This document shows positions 3,250 to 13,994 of a stretch of 64,000 nt of DNA, one piece after another. The DNA is from Pseudomonadota bacterium (lineage in GTDB: Bacteria; Desulfobacterota; Binatia; Binatales; Binataceae), in assembly GCA_021324885.1 (NCBI GenBank), contig JAJPIF010000001.1:1-64000 (forward strand), given 5' to 3'. The notes beneath the pieces were generated by a model that was not told where the DNA came from, did not search any database, and saw only the letters and a list, made by a program, of their open reading frames with translations. Every line of letters starts with the position of its first letter. Position 1 is the stretch's first letter. The position numbers were made by a program, and so were the translations under genes.

Positions 3250-6200
3250 CTATCCGGGCCCAGGCATGTCCGGGCGACGGCGGCGCATCCCGACCATGTA
3301 GATGCCGGCGGCCAGCGGAGTGGACAGCAGCAAGGCGTAAATCAGGCCGCCGATTACCGCGATTGCCAGCGGTTGCTGCACCTTCGCGCCTGCGCCCAGC
3401 CCCAGGGCCAGCGGCAGCAGGCCGGCGGCTGTCGCCAGCGTCGTCATCAGAATTGGCCTGATCCTGATCCGCGCCGCCGCCACCAGCGCGGCTCTCGGAT
3501 GCTCGCCGCGGTCGATGTCGCGCTGGGCATGATCGAGCAAAAGGATGCCGTTTTTCGCGGTAATGCCGGCAACCATGATGATGCCCATGAAGGAGGAGAT
3601 GTTGAGCGTGATGCCGGTGATGCTCAACCCGACTAAGCTGCCGGCCAGACATGACAGCGCGCCGATCAGAACCGCCAATGCTGGCGCGGCCGCGGCAAAT
3701 TCCCATACCAGCACCAGGAACATCGCGACCGTCGCTGCAACCAGCACCAGTTCGAGTTGATAAAATGATTTCTGCTGTTCGGCATACAGGCCGCCGTATT
3801 CCAAGGTGACGCCGGCAGGCAGGATGAGTCCCTTCAGGCGCTCTTTGACTCGGGCCATCGCCGTGCCGAGATCGACGCCCTCAGTGCGGGCAGTGACGTG
3901 AACCACAGGACGCAGCCGCTCGCGATCAAGTTCCGTCTGCTCGCCCATCCATTTCAAGCTGGCCAGGGCCGACAGCGGAATTCGGCCGCCGCTGGGCGTG
4001 TCGATAAGCGTCTGATCGAGCACTTCGAGACTGTTATGATAGACATGGGGATAGCGCACGCGCACCCCGATCAACCGATCTCCCACACGCAGTTGAGTCG
4101 CTACGGTGCCTTCGACCACGGCCCTCAAAGTGGCGCGCACCTCCTGCGCCGAAACCCCGTAGCGTTCCGCCACCGTCTGATTTACCAGGATTTCCTCCTC
4201 CGGACTGCTCAGGACCAGGCCGTTGAACAGGTCAACCAATCCGGGCACGGTGCGCAGCCGGTCGGCAATCTGGCGGGCCGTGGCTTCGATCGTTGCCTGG
4301 TCCGCGCCAAAAACCTTCACCTCGATCGGTTCAGGCGTGCCGGACAGGTCGCCGATCAAATCCTGCAGGACCTGCGAGAATTCGATGCGTACGCCTGGCA
4401 CCGATTCCAGTATGCGCCGCCTTACCGACTCCATAATAGCGTCGATGCCGCGGGAACGATTGCTCTTGAGCAGTACCGACATGTCGCCACGGTTCGATTC
4501 GGTCAGAAAAAATCCAAGTTGGGTTCCGGTGCGGCGCGAGAACGAAGCCACCTCCGGCGTGGTCTTGAGGATGTGTTCGATTTTCGCCAGCAACGCCTGG
4601 GTGTCGGCCAGGGTGCTTTCCGGCGGAGTGGTGTAATCGAGGACGAAAGCGCCTTCGTCGAGGGCGGGCAGATAGTCGGTTCCGATGGTGCGATAGAAGA
4701 CCAGCGCGATCGCCAGCGATCCGATCGCGACGAACAGCGCCAGCGGCGGGAAGCTGAGAAAAGGCCTGAGGCTCGCAATATACCCGCGCTGGGCCAGGAC
4801 GAACAGCCGTCCCGGTTCGCGCGCCCGCCCCCGCCATCGCTCGGCCAGCAGTTCAAGTCCAGGTGTGAAAAACAGGGCCAGCAGCAGCGAGACGGCCAGG
4901 CCGCCGCCCAGGGTAAAGGCCAGCGCGCGGAAGAAAACCCCGGTAACGCCGGAGAGGAAAATCAAAGGTATAAACACGATCACCACGGTGGCGGTGGAAG
5001 CGATTAGCGGGCGCGTCAATTCCCGCAGCGCATTGTCCACCGACGCCTGCGCGCTGCTGCCGCCGGCGTGCGCCCGATGCATCGCTTCGATCATCACAAT
5101 CGCGTCGTCAATAAACAGTCCGATCCCGGCCGCCAGTCCGCCCAGCGTCATCATGTTGAACGTCATCCCCATGAAGCTCATCACGGCGAACGTGATCAGG
5201 ATCGTGCAGGGCACCACGACCGCGGCGATCGCCGCGCTGAGCGGGCTGCCGGTAAAACCGAAGACCACGGCGACCGCCAGCAGGAGGCCCAGGACGATTG
5301 CGTCGCGCACGCTGTTGAAGGAGTCCTGCACAAGTTTCGCCTGATCGTAGGAAAACGAAAACTGGACATCGGGATAGCGGACCTTGAACTCGGAAAGGAT
5401 CGCGTGAGTCTGACGCGAGATGGCAGTGACGCTGCCGTCGGGCTGCTCCGATACGCTTACCAGAACGGCGGGCCCGTTCTCGCAACTGGTGCGGATATAG
5501 TCTTCCTTGATGCGGAGTTGGACGTTGGCGATGTCGCGGACATAAATCGGCACTCCGTTGACATTGGCCACCGGCACCGCCTGTAGTTGTTCGATCCCGT
5601 GCAGATCGGTGGTCACCACTGTCAACAGCATACGATGGGCGTCGAACACGCGCCCGGCCGACTCGATCACGTTGGCTTTGGCCAGGCCGTTGATAACGTC
5701 TTGCGGCGTCAGCTGATGTTGGAGCATCCGCGCCGGGTCCAGCCTGATCTCGTACTCCGGGTATTTTGCGCCTACCACTTCGACGCGATAAACGCCGGCG
5801 ATCCGATGCAGACTGGGCGCAAGATCATACTGGGCGATTTGGGTCAGTTCGGTCAAAGCGCGTACACGAGAGGCAAGGCTGACGTTTAGAACGGGAAAGG
5901 TGCCGCCGGTCAGCAATCGCGAATCAACGCTGGTGTCGGGGGGCAGGCGCGAGCGGACTTCGTTCAGTGCAGCATTGAGCAATTGAAAGCTCGAGACCGG
6001 GTCGCTGTTTTCGCTGAAGGTGACGTCGATTTCCGAGCTCCCGCGGCTGGTTGTGGAACGCACCAGCGTCACCCCCATGGCGCCGTAGGCGGCTTCCTCC
6101 AGCGGTCGCGTGACCGCGACCAGCATCTGCTGGGGAGGAAGATCGCCGCTGTCGGCCAGCACGATCGCGCGATTGAACTGAACCAATGGAAAAACGGCGC

Positions 6201-6285
6201 TGGGGATGAAGCGCGCCATAACCACTCCCAGAATCGAGGCCGCAGCAACGGCAAACAGCGCAAGCGCGGAATTGGTGTGGCTCAA
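3250..6285 (-). CDS. RND efflux transporter permease (AcrB/HAE type)
   Basis: 1011 residues, full length for an inner-membrane RND pump. TM4 carries the acidic pair in GLFIDDAIVMIEA and TM10 carries the lysine in GITAKNGILLLDHAQ, the proton-relay residues of hydrophobe/amphiphile exporters; the CusA metal-exporter signature is absent. Two halves, each with a large periplasmic loop, are evident. It overlaps the adaptor gene by 4 bp (ATGA) and is the last gene of an operon with tolC-like, histidine kinase and response regulator genes. It exports small molecules through the adaptor and TolC partner; substrate unknown, plausibly lipophilic compounds sensed by the kinase. Confidence 0.93.
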   Translation of the reverse strand: MSHTNSALALFAVAAASILGVVMARFIPSAVFPLVQFNRAIVLADSGDLPPQQMLVAVTRPLEEAAYGAMGVTLVRSTTSRGSSEIDVTFSENSDPVSSFQLLNAALNEVRSRLPPDTSVDSRLLTGGTFPVLNVSLASRVRALTELTQIAQYDLAPSLHRIAGVYRVEVVGAKYPEYEIRLDPARMLQHQLTPQDVINGLAKANVIESAGRVFDAHRMLLTVVTTDLHGIEQLQAVPVANVNGVPIYVRDIANVQLRIKEDYIRTSCENGPAVLVSVSEQPDGSVTAISRQTHAILSEFKVRYPDVQFSFSYDQAKLVQDSFNSVRDAIVLGLLLAVAVVFGFTGSPLSAAIAAVVVPCTILITFAVMSFMGMTFNMMTLGGLAAGIGLFIDDAIVMIEAMHRAHAGGSSAQASVDNALRELTRPLIASTATVVIVFIPLIFLSGVTGVFFRALAFTLGGGLAVSLLLALFFTPGLELLAERWRGRAREPGRLFVLAQRGYIASLRPFLSFPPLALFVAIGSLAIALVFYRTIGTDYLPALDEGAFVLDYTTPPESTLADTQALLAKIEHILKTTPEVASFSRRTGTQLGFFLTESNRGDMSVLLKSNRSRGIDAIMESVRRRILESVPGVRIEFSQVLQDLIGDLSGTPEPIEVKVFGADQATIEATARQIADRLRTVPGLVDLFNGLVLSSPEEEILVNQTVAERYGVSAQEVRATLRAVVEGTVATQLRVGDRLIGVRVRYPHVYHNSLEVLDQTLIDTPSGGRIPLSALASLKWMGEQTELDRERLRPVVHVTARTEGVDLGTAMARVKERLKGLILPAGVTLEYGGLYAEQQKSFYQLELVLVAATVAMFLVLVWEFAAAAPALAVLIGALSCLAGSLVGLSITGITLNISSFMGIIMVAGITAKNGILLLDHAQRDIDRGEHPRAALVAAARIRIRPILMTTLATAAGLLPLALGLGAGAKVQQPLAIAVIGGLIYALLLSTPLAAGIYMVGMRRRRPDMPGPG

Positions 6286-7271
6286 GTGTGCGGCACCGTC
6301 ACTTTCACCCTGAGGCCGTCGGAGAGCGCGTAGCCGCCCGAAGTGATTACGAGCTGGCCGGGGTTCAGCCCGGAGGTGACCTGCACTTCGGATTGATTGC
6401 GAATGCCGAGCGTGACCAGCGTACGATGGGCTTTGCCATCGGGTCCGGCGACGAAGACGTAAAAGGTGTCGTTGGCCGCGTTTTCAAACAGCGCCGCGGA
6501 GGGAATCGCAATCGCATCCGGCGCGCTTTTGGTGATGAGACGGATTTCGACCGGAGCGCCTGCCTGTTCGATTCTTCTCGGACCGGTAAACTCCAGGCGG
6601 GCCGAGGAGGTCGCTGCGGCTCCCTGGGTGAAGTTGGGGGCCAATGCTGCTACACGGGCCGGAAAATCAACGTCGGGCTCCAGCGGCGAGGTTACCATCG
6701 CCGTCATTCCCGGCCGGACCTGGGAAACTTCATCGACTGGCACCGCAGCCTGAACGTAGATGCTGTTGGGATCGATCAGGTCGGCGAGCGATTGGAGATC
6801 GCTGACCATCTGGCCGCTGCTGACCAGCCGTTGTGAAACGACGGCATTTTCCGGCGCCTTAATCGCGATTCCCGCCCCTTTGCTGTAGCGCTCAACCGTC
6901 TGCGCGATCGAGGTGGCCTCGGCGGGATCAATCTGGCGGGCAACTTCGAGGCCCTGTTGCGCCGCAATCACTTCCCGGTTCACCACGTAACCAACCAACT
7001 GGCCCGCTCTGACCCGGTCGCCGTCCTGCAGGTTGAAATCGATCACCCGGCCGGAAGAGGGCGCCACCAGAGTTATATGTCTTTGGGCAACGGTCGTTCC
7101 GAGCAGACGCAATTGCTGGCGCATCGGGATCACCCGAACTTTCGCGGCGGTCACCGACATAATCACCGGCGGCGCGTTTTCCTGCGGAGCTGAAGGACCG
7201 CTGCGACATGCGGGTAAATTCAACAGCAACACAACCGGCACCAGCGCGGCCAGCCGTCGGGCGCGGGTCAT
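6282..7271 (-). CDS. RND periplasmic adaptor (membrane fusion) lipoprotein
   Basis: 329 residues with a lipoprotein signal peptide (lipobox LPAC, Cys about residue 22). The biotinyl-lipoyl half motif (SGRVIDFNLQDGDRVRAGQL) is followed by a short helical region, then beta-barrel and membrane-proximal segments ending in LGIRNQSEVQVTSGLNPGQ, typical of AcrA/CusB-like adaptors. Overlaps the tolC-like gene by 4 bp upstream and the pump by 4 bp downstream, so translation is probably coupled. The helical hairpin looks short compared with AcrA. Confidence 0.9.
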   Translation of the reverse strand: MTRARRLAALVPVVLLLNLPACRSGPSAPQENAPPVIMSVTAAKVRVIPMRQQLRLLGTTVAQRHITLVAPSSGRVIDFNLQDGDRVRAGQLVGYVVNREVIAAQQGLEVARQIDPAEATSIAQTVERYSKGAGIAIKAPENAVVSQRLVSSGQMVSDLQSLADLIDPNSIYVQAAVPVDEVSQVRPGMTAMVTSPLEPDVDFPARVAALAPNFTQGAAATSSARLEFTGPRRIEQAGAPVEIRLITKSAPDAIAIPSAALFENAANDTFYVFVAGPDGKAHRTLVTLGIRNQSEVQVTSGLNPGQLVITSGGYALSDGLRVKVTVPHT

Positions 7272-8527
7272 TGCGCAACACCAAACAGCAATCGCGCCTG
7301 TGCAACCGCCTGGCGCGCTGCATATTGCTGGTCCAGTTTGGTCAAATGAAGGTTCTCTGCAGCCTGAAACGCGTCGAGTACTTCAAGCAGCGTGACGTTG
7401 CCGCCGCCCAAAAAACGCGCCCAGTCCAAATTAAACGCGTCGGTCGCCGTGGTCTTGGATTGCTCCAGGATTTTCAACTGCCCAAGCGCGTCCTGATACC
7501 GTGAGTAGGCGTCGGCGAGGTCGCGTTTCAACTGCAAATCGATCTGCCGCTGATTGGCGATCGCGCTGTGCATCGCGGCCTCAGCCTGCTGAATATGCGA
7601 GGTGATCAGACCGCCGTCGAATATCGGCATCGACATCGCGCCGTCATAGGAGGCTCCGAGGTGATTGCCGAAAGTTTCAGGCGGGTACACGCCCAGAAAT
7701 CCACTGGTCAGGGCCAGCTTGAAGGTCGGGTAGCGCTCCGCGCGCGCCGCCGCGACGGCAGCCTTGGCCGCCTCGATCTGGCGTTGGGCAGCGCGAAGGG
7801 TCGGGCTCTTCAGCAAATCGCCGGTGGCCATCGAGGGCAATCCCGTAACCGGCGCGATCTTCAAATCGGTGCGCCCGAAAATTCCCATCAGCGAGCCCAG
7901 CACAATGGAGCTGTGGGCGCGCATCTGGCGCGCTGCCGCCAGACTAAGTTGCTCCTGGTCCCGCGTGGTGCTGACGCGCAGAACGTCGGTGGCCAAGGCG
8001 CGTCCGCTGCGGCGCAGCGCCTGGACGATAGAAACGTAGGCGTTCAGCCTCCGAAGTCTTTTTTCGTGCTCGCTGACCGCCTCGTCGTTGCGCAGCAGGT
8101 CGAAGTAGGCGACCGTCGTGTCGTATACGATCTGCGCCTGCGCCGCCTCGATTCCCAACTGCGCCGCCTGCACCTGATAACGTGCGGCTCGCACCTGCGC
8201 CTGGCGCCGCCCGCCGTCGTACACGGTATATCCGGCCTGCAACTCAGCCAGGGTGAGACCCCCGTTGGTGATCACCTCCTGGTAACCCGGCGCCTGATAA
8301 TATTCGCCGGCCGCGGACAGGTCGGGATAAAGCGCGGAACGGGCTCCGGTCAGTTGCGCATCGCTGAATTCGCCGCTGGCGGAGGCGGTCAGGATAGAAG
8401 GCGCGTAAGCCAGGGCGCGTTTGATCGCCTGGGCAAGCGTGATTGCATCATCGCTCCGCGCGTTGGACGCAAACACCAGGAGCGCGCCCAAGGCCAGGAT
8501 AGCCGCAAACAGGTGGCAACGGCCCAT
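7268..8527 (-). CDS. TolC family outer-membrane efflux protein
   Basis: 419 residues with a signal peptide (cleavage near ARS). Two OEP repeats are visible, beginning with the DAITLAQAIKRALAYAPSI segment, and Gln- and Ala-rich helices with AEAAM and QQYAARQAVAQARLL in the second half. It forms the outer-membrane channel of the pump encoded directly downstream (4-bp overlap with the adaptor gene). It follows the kinase gene after a 47-bp gap that contains a 12-bp perfect palindrome. Confidence 0.9.
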   Translation of the reverse strand: MGRCHLFAAILALGALLVFASNARSDDAITLAQAIKRALAYAPSILTASASGEFSDAQLTGARSALYPDLSAAGEYYQAPGYQEVITNGGLTLAELQAGYTVYDGGRRQAQVRAARYQVQAAQLGIEAAQAQIVYDTTVAYFDLLRNDEAVSEHEKRLRRLNAYVSIVQALRRSGRALATDVLRVSTTRDQEQLSLAAARQMRAHSSIVLGSLMGIFGRTDLKIAPVTGLPSMATGDLLKSPTLRAAQRQIEAAKAAVAAARAERYPTFKLALTSGFLGVYPPETFGNHLGASYDGAMSMPIFDGGLITSHIQQAEAAMHSAIANQRQIDLQLKRDLADAYSRYQDALGQLKILEQSKTTATDAFNLDWARFLGGGNVTLLEVLDAFQAAENLHLTKLDQQYAARQAVAQARLLFGVAQ

Positions 8528-8566
8528 GACCTGAGCGTACCCGACCCAATCGATCCGGCCTAATTA

Positions 8567-8578
8567 ATGAACGTTCAT
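8567..8578. promoter_or_regulatory. Perfect 12-bp palindrome before the tolC-like gene
   Basis: ATGAACGTTCAT is a perfect palindrome in an A/T-rich patch overlapping the kinase stop codon and lying 40 bp upstream of the tolC-like start. It resembles a dimeric repressor operator (TetR-type sites often have this form). It may also be chance. No regulator other than the two-component system is encoded nearby. Confidence 0.35.
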
Positions 8579-9921
8579 GATTGCGCATGGAGGGGCAGCT
8601 TGACCGTCACAGCGGCGCCGCCGCCCGGATTGTTGCAGGCGGAGATTTCGCCGTGGTGCAAGCGCACGATTTCGCGGCACAGGCTTAAACCCAGCCCGCT
8701 GCCGGCGGTCTTGTGCCCGGCGCCGCGGAAGAAGCGCTCGAAAACGAATGGGAGGTCCTCGGGCGGGATTCCGGGACCGTTATCGCACACGCGTAGGATT
8801 GCGCGATTGCCGTTGCGCTCCAGCGTGGCGGCAATCCGCCCGTTTTCCGGAGCAAACTTGATTGCGTTGTCGAGCAAATTGACCAGCAGCCGCCGCAGAT
8901 GATCCCGGTTGCCGTCGACCACCACCCGGACCTCGGTTTTTGCATCCACGGTGAGATGCCTGGCATCGGTCAAAGGTTCAACCGCCTCGATCACCTCATG
9001 CATCAGTTCGCTCATGTCCACCGGGGCGCGTTGCACAAAGGCTTCGTCGCCAAGCCGCGCAATCGCCAGCAATTCATCGGCGCTGGCGCATAATGCCACC
9101 GTCACGCGCAGCGCCGACTGCAGAGCCTGGCGCAATTCCTCCGGACTGCGCCCGCGATTGAGTTCGACTTCAAGACCGGTGCGCAGGACCGTGAGCGGCG
9201 TGCGCAGCTCGTGCGCCGCGTCGGAGAGAAAGCGGCGCTCGGTGCGCGACGCGGTTTCGAGCCGGTCCAGAAGCGCGTTGATCGAAACGCTCAGCCGCGC
9301 GACTTCGTCCACGGCCGCACCGACCGGGATGCGGTGAGTCAACTCTCTGGGATTGATGCGAGCCAGGTCTCGCGCCAGCAAATTGATTGGAGCCAGCGAG
9401 CGCCCGGCCAGCCAGTAGCCCAACGCCACCGAAACCAGCAGCAGCAACGGAGTCAGCACCAGGAGAATCGTGCCCAGCCGGGCGATCGAATCGCGCACCG
9501 GGGTGGCATCGACGCCGTCTTCGAGCAGCGCGGGCCGGCCATCGATCGACAAGGGCATCACGGCGAACCTGTAAGTGCGACCGCCGTCGAACAGTCCCGG
9601 GCGCCGGATGTTGTCGAGGGCCGGGAGATGGGCCTGAGGGCTGCCGAAATCCGCTATCACCGCGCCTGCGACAATCAGGCGGACGCGCTTATGCGGACCG
9701 AGGTCGCGCTCGCGGCTGAGACGGCGCACAATGGAGGCTGCGGCGGCGCCGTTAAACCGGGTAATCGCGCTGGCGCTGGTATCCGCTTCTTCCATCAGGG
9801 CGGCGTCGAGCGCGCCCCATTGTTGACGGCTGAAGATAACGAACACCGAACCGGCCGCGATTAGAAGGATCGCAGCCAGCACTGCGGCCCAGTAAAGCGT
9901 GAGTTTTTGCCTGATGGTCAT
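8575..9921 (-). CDS. Sensor histidine kinase
   Basis: 448 residues. Two membrane segments (about residues 10-32 and 150-172) bracket a periplasmic sensor region of about 120 residues; a HAMP segment follows (RSLAPI start), then the H-box AAHELRTPL with the phospho-accepting His, N-box LLDNAIKFAPENG, G1 DNGPGIP, F-box FVFERFFRG and G2 GSGLGLSL. It is EnvZ/CusS-like in layout. Downstream of the response regulator by 12 bp and upstream of the efflux genes, so it probably senses a periplasmic compound and controls the pump operon. Confidence 0.95.
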   Translation of the reverse strand: MTIRQKLTLYWAAVLAAILLIAAGSVFVIFSRQQWGALDAALMEEADTSASAITRFNGAAAASIVRRLSRERDLGPHKRVRLIVAGAVIADFGSPQAHLPALDNIRRPGLFDGGRTYRFAVMPLSIDGRPALLEDGVDATPVRDSIARLGTILLVLTPLLLLVSVALGYWLAGRSLAPINLLARDLARINPRELTHRIPVGAAVDEVARLSVSINALLDRLETASRTERRFLSDAAHELRTPLTVLRTGLEVELNRGRSPEELRQALQSALRVTVALCASADELLAIARLGDEAFVQRAPVDMSELMHEVIEAVEPLTDARHLTVDAKTEVRVVVDGNRDHLRRLLVNLLDNAIKFAPENGRIAATLERNGNRAILRVCDNGPGIPPEDLPFVFERFFRGAGHKTAGSGLGLSLCREIVRLHHGEISACNNPGGGAAVTVKLPLHAQS

Positions 9922-9933
9922 TGCGGCAGCGGG

Positions 9934-10614
9934 CTAGCCGCGGCGCATCAAATATCCAGCCCCGCGTACTGTCACGATCAGGGATTCGCTCCCCGCATAG
10001 TCAATCTTCTGGCGCAGCCGATTGACGAATACCTCGATCAGGTTGGTAAATTCGTTGAAATCCGCACCCCACGCCACCTCCACGATCATATCCCGGGTCA
10101 CCACCTGTCCCGCATTGCGCATCAGCAGTTCGAGCAGGATTGTTTCCTTGGGCGAGAGCGAAAGTTCACGGCCGGCGCGCCAGACCTTGCGGCGGATCGT
10201 GTCCATTTCGAGGTCCGCCACCTTGAGCACGGGCGAGGGCGAGACAAAATGGCGCCGCGCGAGGGCCTTGATCCGGGCAAGCAGCTCGGCGAAGGCAAAC
10301 GGCTTGACCAGGTAATCGTCAGCGCCGGAATCAAGCCCGGTCACCCGCTCCTCCACGGAGCCGCGCGCCGTCAGAACAATTACCGGGACCGCACTTCCCC
10401 GGCCGCGAAGGTCACGCAGAAAATCCAGGCCGTCCCTGCCGGGCAGCCGCAAATCGAGCACGATCAGGTCATGGCCCTTGCGTGCGAATTCCCCTTCGGC
10501 GGCTTCCGCGCTCGGCGCCCAATCGACGGCGAAGCCCTCTTCCGTCAAGCCGCGCAAAAGGCTGTGCGCCAGAGCGGCCTCATCCTCGACCAGCAGCAGC
10601 GATAAGCAGTGCAC
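9934..10614 (-). CDS. OmpR-family response regulator
   Basis: 226 residues. Receiver domain with the acidic pair in VEDE, phospho-acceptor Asp in LIVLDLRLPGRDGLD, the conserved Thr and Lys (VLTARG, YLVKPF), then a winged-helix DNA-binding domain ending RLRQKIDY and VRGAGYLM. First gene of the five-gene efflux operon. The likely start is GTG at 10614; no strong Shine-Dalgarno is visible, so the start may be a few codons off. It probably autoregulates the operon. Confidence 0.95.
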   Translation of the reverse strand: MHCLSLLLVEDEAALAHSLLRGLTEEGFAVDWAPSAEAAEGEFARKGHDLIVLDLRLPGRDGLDFLRDLRGRGSAVPVIVLTARGSVEERVTGLDSGADDYLVKPFAFAELLARIKALARRHFVSPSPVLKVADLEMDTIRRKVWRAGRELSLSPKETILLELLMRNAGQVVTRDMIVEVAWGADFNEFTNLIEVFVNRLRQKIDYAGSESLIVTVRGAGYLMRRG

Positions 10615-10726: not shown

Positions 10727-11179
10727 TCAGCGCAAGGTGTGCTCGCCGCCGATGCCGCCTACGGCGACCGCTGCTATCCGGGTGGTGCGGCCGCTGCGAT
10801 TGTGCCATGCATGCATCCCGCCGATTTGTACCACGCAGTCGCCCTGCTTCAGATGCGCTTCGCTGCCGTCGTGGAAGATCAGGTCGATTTCACCGTCGAG
10901 AACCACGAGGTAGTCGATGGTTGGCGTCTTGTGCATCACGCCGGGGCTGTCAGTGGGAGGAAACTCAACGATACGGAAGCGCGTCTGGCCGGGCTGGAGA
11001 TCCATCCGGACGCGGTCGAATTGCGCCGTGAAGTCGTGTTCATCCTTGAGGTCGGGTGCGGCGCCTTCGGTGGCCCAGATTTCGGTCAGGGTAAAGCCTC
11101 CCTGCGAGAAGATCTTTGGGCACGGTCCGTCGATAATCGCGTGCGGCTTTGATTGTCCCCCAACGACTCTTCTGGTCAT
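10727..11179 (-). CDS. Cupin domain protein
   Basis: 150 residues with a single cupin fold: HKTPTIDYLVVLDGEIDLIF is the first motif region and GDCVVQIGGMHAWHNRSG the second, so likely metal ligands include the His residues of MHAWHN. Such small cupins bind metals and act as sensors, isomerases or dioxygenases; function is not assignable. Preceded by GGAGG at good spacing. It lies 24 bp after the MurD-type gene on the same strand and may be the third gene of that operon, although a role in cell-wall synthesis is not evident. Confidence 0.8.
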   Translation of the reverse strand: MTRRVVGGQSKPHAIIDGPCPKIFSQGGFTLTEIWATEGAAPDLKDEHDFTAQFDRVRMDLQPGQTRFRIVEFPPTDSPGVMHKTPTIDYLVVLDGEIDLIFHDGSEAHLKQGDCVVQIGGMHAWHNRSGRTTRIAAVAVGGIGGEHTLR

Positions 11180-11203: not shown

Positions 11204-12610
11204 TCAATCCGCCATGCTCAATTCCCGGACATAACGGCGGAACAGGTCGCCCCGCTCGGCAAAGTCCCTGAACAGACCAAAGCTGGGCGAGGCGGGCGAA
11301 TGCAGGCAGATGCGGCCTTTGGGCGTATTTTCGTAGGCCAGCGAGACCGCGGCGCCCATGTCGGCGGTGAAGAAGCTTTTGGGCAGCGCCGCCCGCTCTC
11401 CGTACTCGCGTTTGATCGCCTGCCAGATTCGCGTCCCCGAGGGCGGAAAAAGAATCAGCGTACGCACCTGGCTGCGGCGCAATCGCTGCGCGAGTTTGTC
11501 CATGTCCACACCCCGATCGAAGCCGCCCAGCATGACCGTCGCGACGCCGGATCCAAGCGCGTCCAGTGCGGCGATGGTCGCTTCGGGAATCGTCGCCAGA
11601 GGGTCGTCATAGAACGTGATTCCGTTGAATGTCCCGACGCATTCGAGCCGGTAAGCCAATGGTTTGAAGGCGCGCACGGCCGCGGCGACAGCTTCGCGTT
11701 GGACGCCGAGGACGCGGCCCACCGCGATCGCGGCGAGAGCGTTGTGCAGATTGAAACGGCCGGGCAGGGCAATCTCGTCAGCCGCCATTATCGTCTCGAT
11801 CTCGCCGTCGTCGCGCCGATGCATGATGTGGTTGCGCTCGAGAAATACCCTGAGCGCCGGGGCCGGTTCCAGGGCAAATCCAACCCGCTGCGCTCGGGTT
11901 AAATCCGCGATCTTACGCGGGATCGGATACATCGCATTGTAGATCAAAACGTCGCCGGCGGTCTGAAAGCGAGTGATGTTTTGCTTGGCGCGAACATAGT
12001 TTTCGAAACCGCCATGCAGGTCGAGATGCTCGGGCACGATGTTCAGCAGCACCGCGATGTGCGGGCTGCGATGGATCCCGTCAAGCTGGTAGCTGGACAG
12101 TTCGATCACGGCGTAACTGCGCGGCCCAATCGATCGGAGCAGATTCAGCGCCGGCACCCCGATATTGCCGACCAGATGCGAATCCAGACCGCCGGCGCGC
12201 AGGATCGCGTGGATCAAAGACGCGGTGGTGCTTTTGCCCTTGGTTCCGGTCACGCCGATAGTCATGCCTGCGTAATTGGCCAGAAAAATTTCGATCTGCG
12301 ACGTCACTCTGACTCCCGCGCGGGCGGCAGCGGCGATCGCCGGCGTAATCAGCGGAACCCCGGGCGATCGGATCACGACCTCGTACCTGTCCAGGCTTGC
12401 CAGGTAGCCCTCGCCGAAGTGAGTGATCGCCTTGCCATCGGCGGCGATCGCGCGTTGCGCTTGCGGATCAAGGCGGTCGATTTGAAGCCGATCGGCGAGC
12501 CCGATCTCCTTGTCAGGGAACTCCGCGCGCAGGAACTGGTAAGTCGCGACTCCTTCGCGGCCCAGCCCAAGGATCAGGACCCGGGCTCCGGCCAGTTCAG
12601 AAAGCATCAT
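11204..12610 (-). CDS. murD: MurD-type UDP-N-acetylmuramoyl-L-alanine glutamate ligase (probably MurD2, L-Glu specific)
   Basis: 468-residue Mur ligase. N-terminal Rossmann-like domain (VLILGLGREG), ATP P-loop GVTGTKGKSTT (about 119-129), central motif NIVPEHLDLHG, and C-terminal SPASPSFG with DFAERGDLF. It adds glutamate to UDP-MurNAc-L-alanine in the cytoplasm. It is not within a dcw cluster; instead it overlaps by 14 bp the probable murL gene. In Xanthomonas the MurD2/MurL pair works as L-Glu ligase plus terminal epimerase, so the L-Glu-specific form (EC 6.3.2.53) is the likelier reading here. That specificity is inferred from context; ordinary D-Glu MurD is the alternative. Confidence 0.88.
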   Translation of the reverse strand: MMLSELAGARVLILGLGREGVATYQFLRAEFPDKEIGLADRLQIDRLDPQAQRAIAADGKAITHFGEGYLASLDRYEVVIRSPGVPLITPAIAAAARAGVRVTSQIEIFLANYAGMTIGVTGTKGKSTTASLIHAILRAGGLDSHLVGNIGVPALNLLRSIGPRSYAVIELSSYQLDGIHRSPHIAVLLNIVPEHLDLHGGFENYVRAKQNITRFQTAGDVLIYNAMYPIPRKIADLTRAQRVGFALEPAPALRVFLERNHIMHRRDDGEIETIMAADEIALPGRFNLHNALAAIAVGRVLGVQREAVAAAVRAFKPLAYRLECVGTFNGITFYDDPLATIPEATIAALDALGSGVATVMLGGFDRGVDMDKLAQRLRRSQVRTLILFPPSGTRIWQAIKREYGERAALPKSFFTADMGAAVSLAYENTPKGRICLHSPASPSFGLFRDFAERGDLFRRYVRELSMAD

Positions 12611-13994
12611 ATGGAGATGAAATTGCCGCCTTAAACCGCGCAGCGTATTGCGGCGGCAGATAATGATCGTCGCTCCATGCCGTCAGGATACTCTGCGCCA
12701 ATGCGGACAAATCCCCAAGCGGCGCAAGCACATCGCGCTCGACCCGTTCGAGCAGCGGCGGGACCGCCTGGCGCTGCCGCCGGCGCCCTTTGATAGTCAA
12801 ATAAAGGCCGGCCAGAGTCTCCTGGCGGGTGCCGACGCACTCAAAGGGCTTGGCACCTTCCATCCCGAGCAGCGCGCGCACGGGCGCGATCAAGTCATCC
12901 TGCTCGAACAGGTCGCGTCCGAAAATCGATTTCATCGTATCGAGCGGGAGAAATGGCGAGAGCGAAATAAAAACGGAAAGGCATTTCGGACAGCGCCCGC
13001 ACCACGCACCCTGAGTCCCGGCGCGATTGCAACTGCGAAACGCCTTGAAATATTCGCCGCAGTTCGCGAACAGCCGGCAGACCTGGATTTCGAACAGCGG
13101 CCGCAGGATGCTGAAATAGCCGACCCCGGGGGCCAGATAGGCTTCCGTGTACTCGCGCATCGCGGTTTCGAAGGCGAAGGTCTTGGAGTACTGATGATTA
13201 ATCTCGGCGCCCAGAAAGCTGACGTTGCCCTCGTCGGCGCTGCGCTCGTTGGAGACCACGACGCGATCGTAGTCGAACAGCGCGGTGCAGCTTGTTCCGA
13301 GCATTGCGAGCAGGGCTGAAAAGGGGGTGTGGCCGTTCAAGTATCCGCGGCGGTTGAGTTCAAGCAGCAGCGGATCGAGCGTGCGCCGCACAACCAGCGG
13401 ACGCGAACAACCGGCGATCGCCGCCACCTCCAACGCGGCGGGCAGAGGGTTGAGCAGCAAGCAATTGAACTCTTCGCCCGCCGCGCGCAATTCGTGCAGA
13501 GTCAGCGCCGAGTCCTTGCCGCCGCTTACCATCACCAGACTGCGCCGGGCATTGTGCAGGGCGGGCTTTGCGAGCACCGCCCCCTTTGGGATTCGAGCCG
13601 AAATCTTCAGGAAATCCGGGCTTCTGAAATCGATGCGGTTGATGTAAAAGAATTCGCCCATCCCGCGCAGCCACAGATCCCGCCACCATCGAATTTGTCC
13701 TTCATCCAGCGCGCCTGCTTCGATTACAACTTCGCGCGGGCAAGCCGCTTTCCAGTAGGAAAGCATCTCGATGAGGCCCAGATGGAACGCCAGGCGCTCC
13801 ACCGCAGCCGTATCGAGATCGTCGATGCGCGAGCGCTCGATCGATTCGATCGCGATCTCGGGTGTGAATACGATGTCCGGTTCGAGGAGAAAGCGGAACC
13901 GTATCCAGAGAACATTGCCAGCGCGTTCCCAAGCGCAGCTTTGATAGATGAAACGCGGATGTTTGCGGCGCAGTTTTTCCGCCGTAAGGGTCAT
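12597..13994 (-). CDS. murL: Probable MurL, UDP-MurNAc-L-Ala-L-Glu epimerase
   Basis: 465 residues. A PP-loop-like nucleotide motif SGGKDS (about 157-162), a following NERSADEGNV segment and a Cys cluster CGRCPKC in the last third match the architecture of MurL, the ATP-dependent enzyme that epimerises the terminal L-glutamate of UDP-MurNAc-L-Ala-L-Glu (EC 5.1.1.23). Length fits the Xanthomonas enzyme. The gene overlaps the MurD-type ligase by 14 bp, the expected partner. The start ATG at 13994 lacks a good Shine-Dalgarno site. If the assignment is wrong, it is still an ATP-pyrophosphatase-like (adenine nucleotide alpha hydrolase superfamily) enzyme. Confidence 0.8.
   Translation of the reverse strand: MTLTAEKLRRKHPRFIYQSCAWERAGNVLWIRFRFLLEPDIVFTPEIAIESIERSRIDDLDTAAVERLAFHLGLIEMLSYWKAACPREVVIEAGALDEGQIRWWRDLWLRGMGEFFYINRIDFRSPDFLKISARIPKGAVLAKPALHNARRSLVMVSGGKDSALTLHELRAAGEEFNCLLLNPLPAALEVAAIAGCSRPLVVRRTLDPLLLELNRRGYLNGHTPFSALLAMLGTSCTALFDYDRVVVSNERSADEGNVSFLGAEINHQYSKTFAFETAMREYTEAYLAPGVGYFSILRPLFEIQVCRLFANCGEYFKAFRSCNRAGTQGAWCGRCPKCLSVFISLSPFLPLDTMKSIFGRDLFEQDDLIAPVRALLGMEGAKPFECVGTRQETLAGLYLTIKGRRRQRQAVPPLLERVERDVLAPLGDLSALAQSILTAWSDDHYLPPQYAARFKAAISSPYDAF

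Follow-up and report, generated by a model that had tools for sequence, protein, structure and literature searches.

The locus considered here raises the question of how its host supplies D-glutamate to peptidoglycan. Glutamate racemase is a near-universal enzyme of cell-wall synthesis and a drug target, and in the 64,000-nucleotide stretch of DNA analysed as a whole (the window) two minus-strand genes, murL and murD2, point to another source. An earlier note had described the pair as a MurD-type ligase overlapping a PP-loop protein by 14 bp, and both open reading frames are exactly as it said; with the second ATG of murD2 as start, the overlap shrinks to 11 bp. The motifs that it read in the PP-loop protein, SGGKDS and CGRCPKC (residues 332–338), are likewise present. 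We judge it very probable (about 93%) that murL and murD2 encode an alternative D-glutamate route of peptidoglycan synthesis, in which L-Glu would be attached first by MurD2 and then inverted by MurL to D-Glu. By contrast, in the canonical MurI and MurD route, found in E. coli and in 37 of 41 genomes of the host's family, the racemase makes D-Glu before ligation. The alternative route itself is rare and has been known from Xanthomonas since 2017 (X. oryzae XOO_1320/XOO_1319, Feng et al. 2017; reviewed in PMC8788868 and PMC5808125); against the open-access literature that was covered, the lineage, the scars at the native loci, the broader distribution and the assignment of MurL to QueC-like enzymes appear to be new.

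Profile searches identified the PP-loop protein as MurL, as had been proposed. The single NCBIfam family that it matches is NF041275 (MurL), over model positions 8–445 of 447 (E 2.2e-81); its score of 273.6 bits falls below the family cut-off of 700 bits, which is tuned to Xanthomonadales. The ligase scores 316.8 bits against TIGR01087 murD (cut-off 212), a model that is named for the D-Glu ligase and by itself does not tell MurD from MurD2. In annotated Xanthomonas sacchari, murL and murD stand in the same order with a 20-bp overlap; the window MurL is 38% identical to the X. sacchari MurL over 326 aa, and the window MurD2 33% identical to its MurD over 476 columns. The order, orientation and small overlap of the two genes recur in genus-mates. 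Thus the pair resembles the Xanthomonas system in gene content, order and short overlap, yet its proteins are only 33–38% identical to their counterparts and its host belongs to Candidatus Binatota, outside the groups named in PMC8788868 and PMC5808125. The closest named MurL loci are those of two Centralia soil metagenome-assembled genomes (MAGs) of the same genus (L053/G026 and L054/G025) and of 'Candidatus Binataceae' JOPF020 (L055/G040). Going by these names and the kinship table, the host probably falls within Binataceae or a family close to it.

Table 1. Features of the murL–murD2 locus, in window coordinates
Feature	Position	Strand	Description and basis
murL	12597..13994	minus	465 aa; NF041275 match, likeness to X. 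sacchari MurL, confident AlphaFold2 model
PP-loop SGGKDS, MurL residues 157–162	13509..13526	minus	Predicted ATP pyrophosphate binding; translation, hhalign to QueC SGGxDS
Four-Cys motif C322-x9-C332-x2-C335-x2-C338	12981..13031	minus	Predicted QueC-type Zn site; hhalign to QueC Cys motif
murD2	11204..12610	minus	468 aa, MurD-type ligase; TIGR01087, MurD2 residues, sole MurD in genome
MurD2 determinant E194	12029..12031	minus	X. oryzae E197; Asp in canonical MurD; alignment, codon checked
MurD2 L338	11597..11599	minus	Position of E. coli MurD K319; Lys in canonical MurD; alignment, codon checked
MurD2 determinant R366	11513..11515	minus	X. oryzae R358; Lys in canonical MurD; alignment, codon checked
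MurD2 P442-S443-F444	11279..11287	minus	P442 and F444 are X. oryzae P433 and F435; alignment, codons checked
Small cupin-like ORF	10727..11179	minus	24-bp gap downstream of murD2; 'cupin' by eye

The good score against the canonical MurD model would also suit a different explanation, in which an ordinary MurD specific for D-Glu sits beside a PP-loop protein of unrelated function (tRNA thiolation or deazaguanine chemistry, for instance) and D-Glu comes from an unrecognised enzyme. The residues that set ligase specificity bear directly on this. X. oryzae MurD2 has Glu197, Arg358, Pro433 and Phe435 where E. coli MurD has Asp182, Lys348, Ala414 and Leu416; the double substitution E197D/R358K turns X. 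oryzae MurD2 into a D-Glu ligase, and K319T makes E. coli MurD accept L-Glu (PMC8788868). Judged by alignment, the window ligase carries the residues predictive of MurD2-type L-Glu specificity at every published position tried, as does X. oryzae MurD2, and the proposal that it is a MurD2 is borne out to that extent. At the positions of E194, R366 and L338, aligned MurD2s of other phyla have Glu (Asp in one, that of G049), Arg and Leu or Ile, whereas all 12 aligned canonical Binataceae MurDs have Asp, Lys and Lys; the lysine equivalent to K319, kept in canonical MurD, is thus absent from the window MurD2. Moreover, the window ligase shares 49–51% identity with MurD2s from Acidobacteria and from another family of Binatia, but only 31–32% with the canonical MurD of its relative G040, so it was not derived locally from the resident MurD.

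We next consider what else the genome could use. The host, a soil bacterium, is represented by a 4.53-Mb MAG that is 96% complete. Searches with PF01177 and TIGR00067 detected no glutamate racemase in it. No recognised D-amino-acid transaminase was found in the host genome either, its sole class IV aminotransferase being IlvE (432 bits); lack of both enzymes is shared with the X. oryzae pathway. A search for a second MurD in the same genome found none, so that the murD2 product is its single MurD. All three absences were checked alongside positive controls. Across the 41 genomes of the family, MurL occurs in 4, none of which has murI, and murI occurs in each of the remaining 37 (Fisher p 1e-5, uncorrected for kinship; three of the four MurL-positive genomes are one genus, and the counts are not independent). 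In the 148 genomes of the class, MurL occurs in 7, murI in 105 and both in none (Fisher p 1.2e-4, again uncorrected for kinship). None of 33 further MurL-positive genomes, mostly from other groups, has a racemase over cut-off, and four have weak partial matches. The D-amino-acid transaminase model TIGR01121 likewise has no hit over cut-off among the 148 class genomes; its matches across the class were considered as a D-Glu source and rejected, as they prove to be class IV aminotransferases, of the IlvE type or otherwise, that stay below cut-off. Separately, about 36 of the 148 Binatia genomes have neither murI nor MurL (for example G080, G081, G083, G084 and G087), several of them being 94–98% complete. 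Candidates for their D-Glu source are divergent aminotransferases of class IV, which in family f9 score about 170 bits against TIGR01121.

A MAG that is 96% complete could still hide genes, and both murI and canonical murD occur in relatives within the family. The pair might then be auxiliary to a main route that is present but was missed in the assembly. Inspection of the native loci speaks against this. In relatives, murI lies in the order engB, GT2, orfX, a radical SAM gene resembling spore photoproduct lyase (SPL), murI, secA and argJ. In G000, G025, G026 and G040 the block is intact except for murI, with spacings between the SPL-like gene and secA of about 52, 57, 60 and 126 bp, respectively (for the three genus members a range of 52–61 bp is also given). 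Similarly, relatives have the dcw order mraY, murD, ftsW, but in G000, G025 and G026 murD is gone and mraY and ftsW are 18–19 bp apart. That murI and the dcw murD are missing is therefore borne out by intact flanking loci as well as by failed searches, and three separate assemblies of the genus agree. Both the suggestion that the lineage may lack glutamate racemase and the search for a second murD that had been called for thus end at loci that are present but closed up, and an overlooked main route is highly improbable. Two further genomes also lack murD between these neighbours: in G049 mraY adjoins ftsW, and in G052 about 218 bp separate them. As a side observation, the SPL-like gene shows a constant linkage with murI and secA across the family (L111 8256–9359; homologues in L124–L127).

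In G040 canonical murD persists alongside the pair, which could be taken in favour of an auxiliary role. This genome has lost murI, keeps canonical murD in its dcw cluster and carries murL–murD2 elsewhere, and for this reason it looks like an intermediate, a half-finished swap. Contamination was considered as the source of the G040 MurL; against it stands the closed-up murI locus of G040 itself, owing to which G040 needs another route to D-Glu. In a tree of concatenated SecA, SPL-like and GT2 sequences the genus lies apart from G039/G040, and in the MurL tree the G040 MurL is sister to those of the genus. The simplest reading, which we infer from a small species tree, is separate acquisition or exchange of the pair within the family. 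The pair is the sole identified D-Glu source in this Binatota genus, where murI and the dcw murD have given way to it. An entire genus has thus dispensed with glutamate racemase, and, unlike in Xanthomonas, the replacement of both genes can be followed step by step at the native loci, including the half-finished state in G040.

GTDB genomes were scanned with a MurL profile made from six sequences. The scan relied on short conserved peptides and was not exhaustive; it returned 36 MurL loci from Binatota, Acidobacteriota, Bacteroidota, Planctomycetota, Campylobacterota and several Patescibacteria groups. All 33 MurLs that were aligned match NF041275. MurD2 is encoded nearby on the same contig at 23 of the 36 loci and is fused to MurL at 2 of the 36, as single ORFs in a Bacteroidales genome from roe deer rumen (L084 3962–6628, 888 aa) and in a Microgenomates genome (L072 3968–6277, 769 aa). 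Reviews place MurL in Gammaproteobacteria, Alphaproteobacteria and some actinobacteria, with orthologues of low similarity in a fungus, cyanobacteria and an amoeba (PMC8788868, PMC5808125). The MurL–MurD2 pathway is wider than the groups named there, extending to Acidobacteriota, Bacteroidota, Patescibacteria, Planctomycetota and others. Pseudonocardia plasmids encode MurL homologues of 27–29% identity, annotated as hypothetical (L129 3764–5164; L130 3800–5194), which have a convergent WD40-repeat gene instead of MurD2 alongside; in them the MurL fold possibly serves another purpose.

MurL and MurD2 are linked with one another, and with the supply of D-Glu, by fusion, by adjacency and by mutual exclusion with murI. 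These links weigh against an ordinary MurD beside an unrelated PP-loop protein, as do the MurD2-type residues, the loss of canonical murD from its dcw slot and the full-length match to the MurL model, with no QueC or QatC family over cut-off. Two further points lean the other way: the fold of MurL is common to QueC, QatC and TtuA enzymes with different reactions, and the 36 Binatia genomes devoid of murI and MurL imply that the class must have some other source of D-Glu. On balance we regard an ordinary MurD as very unlikely and retain the MurD2/MurL route.

MurL has been described as having no known domains, and as using one ATP with release of AMP; adenylation of the α-carboxylate has been proposed for it (PMC8788868, PMC5808125). 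No MurL structure turned up when the PDB was searched by sequence, and an AlphaFold2 model was built from 33 sequences (mean pLDDT 93.4, pTM 0.92). Its best structural matches are QatC (Z 18.3 over 322 residues), QueC (13.7 and 13.4) and Cap9 (13.2), with all others at 8.8 or below. The hallmarks of QueC are SGGxDS and C(x)8CxxCxxC (PMC13329287), and a profile comparison of MurL with QueC by hhalign (E 2.6e-5, probability 75%) aligned the PP-loop and the four Cys residues. In the alignment of 33 MurLs, G159 and D161 of the loop are invariant, and C322, C332, C335 and C338 are conserved in all 33; the first Cys spacing is x9 in the window MurL versus x8 in QueC, and longer in some aligned MurLs. 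A fifth Cys, C386 in a KPFEC motif (window 12837–12839), is also invariant in the 33 MurLs, in X. sacchari and in the Pseudonocardia homologues; a role as acid/base residue is possible.

MurL thus appears to be a member of the QueC-like PP-loop enzymes, an assignment with a modest sequence link to QueC that leans mainly on the predicted model. It shares with QueC, QatC and Cap9 the predicted fold, the SGGxDS loop and a C(x)8–9CxxCxxC motif, and with QatC the N- and C-terminal extensions around the core (PMC13329287, PMC13279940). MurL differs from all three in that it would catalyse epimerisation instead of nitrile or conjugate formation, and from canonical QueC in that the VPxRN and YPDC motifs are not among its invariants and no family-level HMM match is seen. 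QueC proper (PF06508, preQ0 synthase) was rejected as its identity (best 16.2 bits versus a cut-off of 22), as was QatC of the qatABCD defence system (no PADLOC match, MurD2 as partner and no qat genes alongside). MurL could instead be a true epimerase of other descent, with the fold match reflecting a generic Rossmann/PP-loop arrangement. Identity to QueC and QatC chains is just 12–19%, the hhalign probability does not exceed 75%, and a profile search of the PDB gave TtuA (E 5e-6), through the PP-loop only, rather than QueC. Such an origin seems unlikely, however, when QatC, QueC and Cap9 stand at Z 13–18 versus at most 8.8 for other PP-loop enzymes, with the QatC match spanning 322 residues, when both hallmark motifs are kept in the same order at near-identical spacing, and when the weak family matches that exist are to QueC (Pfam QueC for 11 MurL members, PADLOC QueC for 5). 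We found no publication in the open-access literature covered that joins MurL and QueC by name, and the QueC-family papers PMC13329287 and PMC13279940 make no mention of an epimerase or of peptidoglycan.

Descent from QueC-like enzymes would rationalise the ATP-to-AMP chemistry of MurL by analogy: QueC also performs ATP-dependent chemistry on a carboxylate (PMC13329287, PMC13279940), which fits the reaction proposed for MurL. In the mechanism that we envisage, ATP would be bound by the SGGKDS loop and used to adenylate the α-carboxylate of the L-Glu residue, and adenylation would acidify its α proton. Deprotonation, re-protonation on the opposite face and hydrolysis of the adenylate would then yield D-Glu and AMP. 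The Cys motif, with its predicted Zn, is expected to be structural, and the invariant residues H222, H267, K271, E250, E302 and C386 are candidates for catalysis. Placing MurL in the QueC fold provides an enzyme described as domain-less with a mechanism that can be tested, and would link cell-wall epimerisation to deazaguanine and anti-phage enzymes. Overall, we consider it reasonably likely that MurL is a carboxylate-adenylating enzyme of the QueC superfamily turned epimerase and that the murL–murD2 cassette has moved between phyla, more than once displacing murI and the dcw murD, with G040 caught mid-swap.

The neighbourhood of the pair is kept within the genus and is not shared by G040. Scans for promoters and terminators found nothing. 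The small cupin-like ORF has no match in NCBIfam; G025 and G026 share its synteny, G040 does not, and it probably lies outside the D-Glu pathway. Farther downstream of the pair, on the minus strand (window 3250–10614), are genes for an RND efflux permease, HlyD-like and TolC-like proteins (labels given by eye) and a CopR/CopS-like two-component system.
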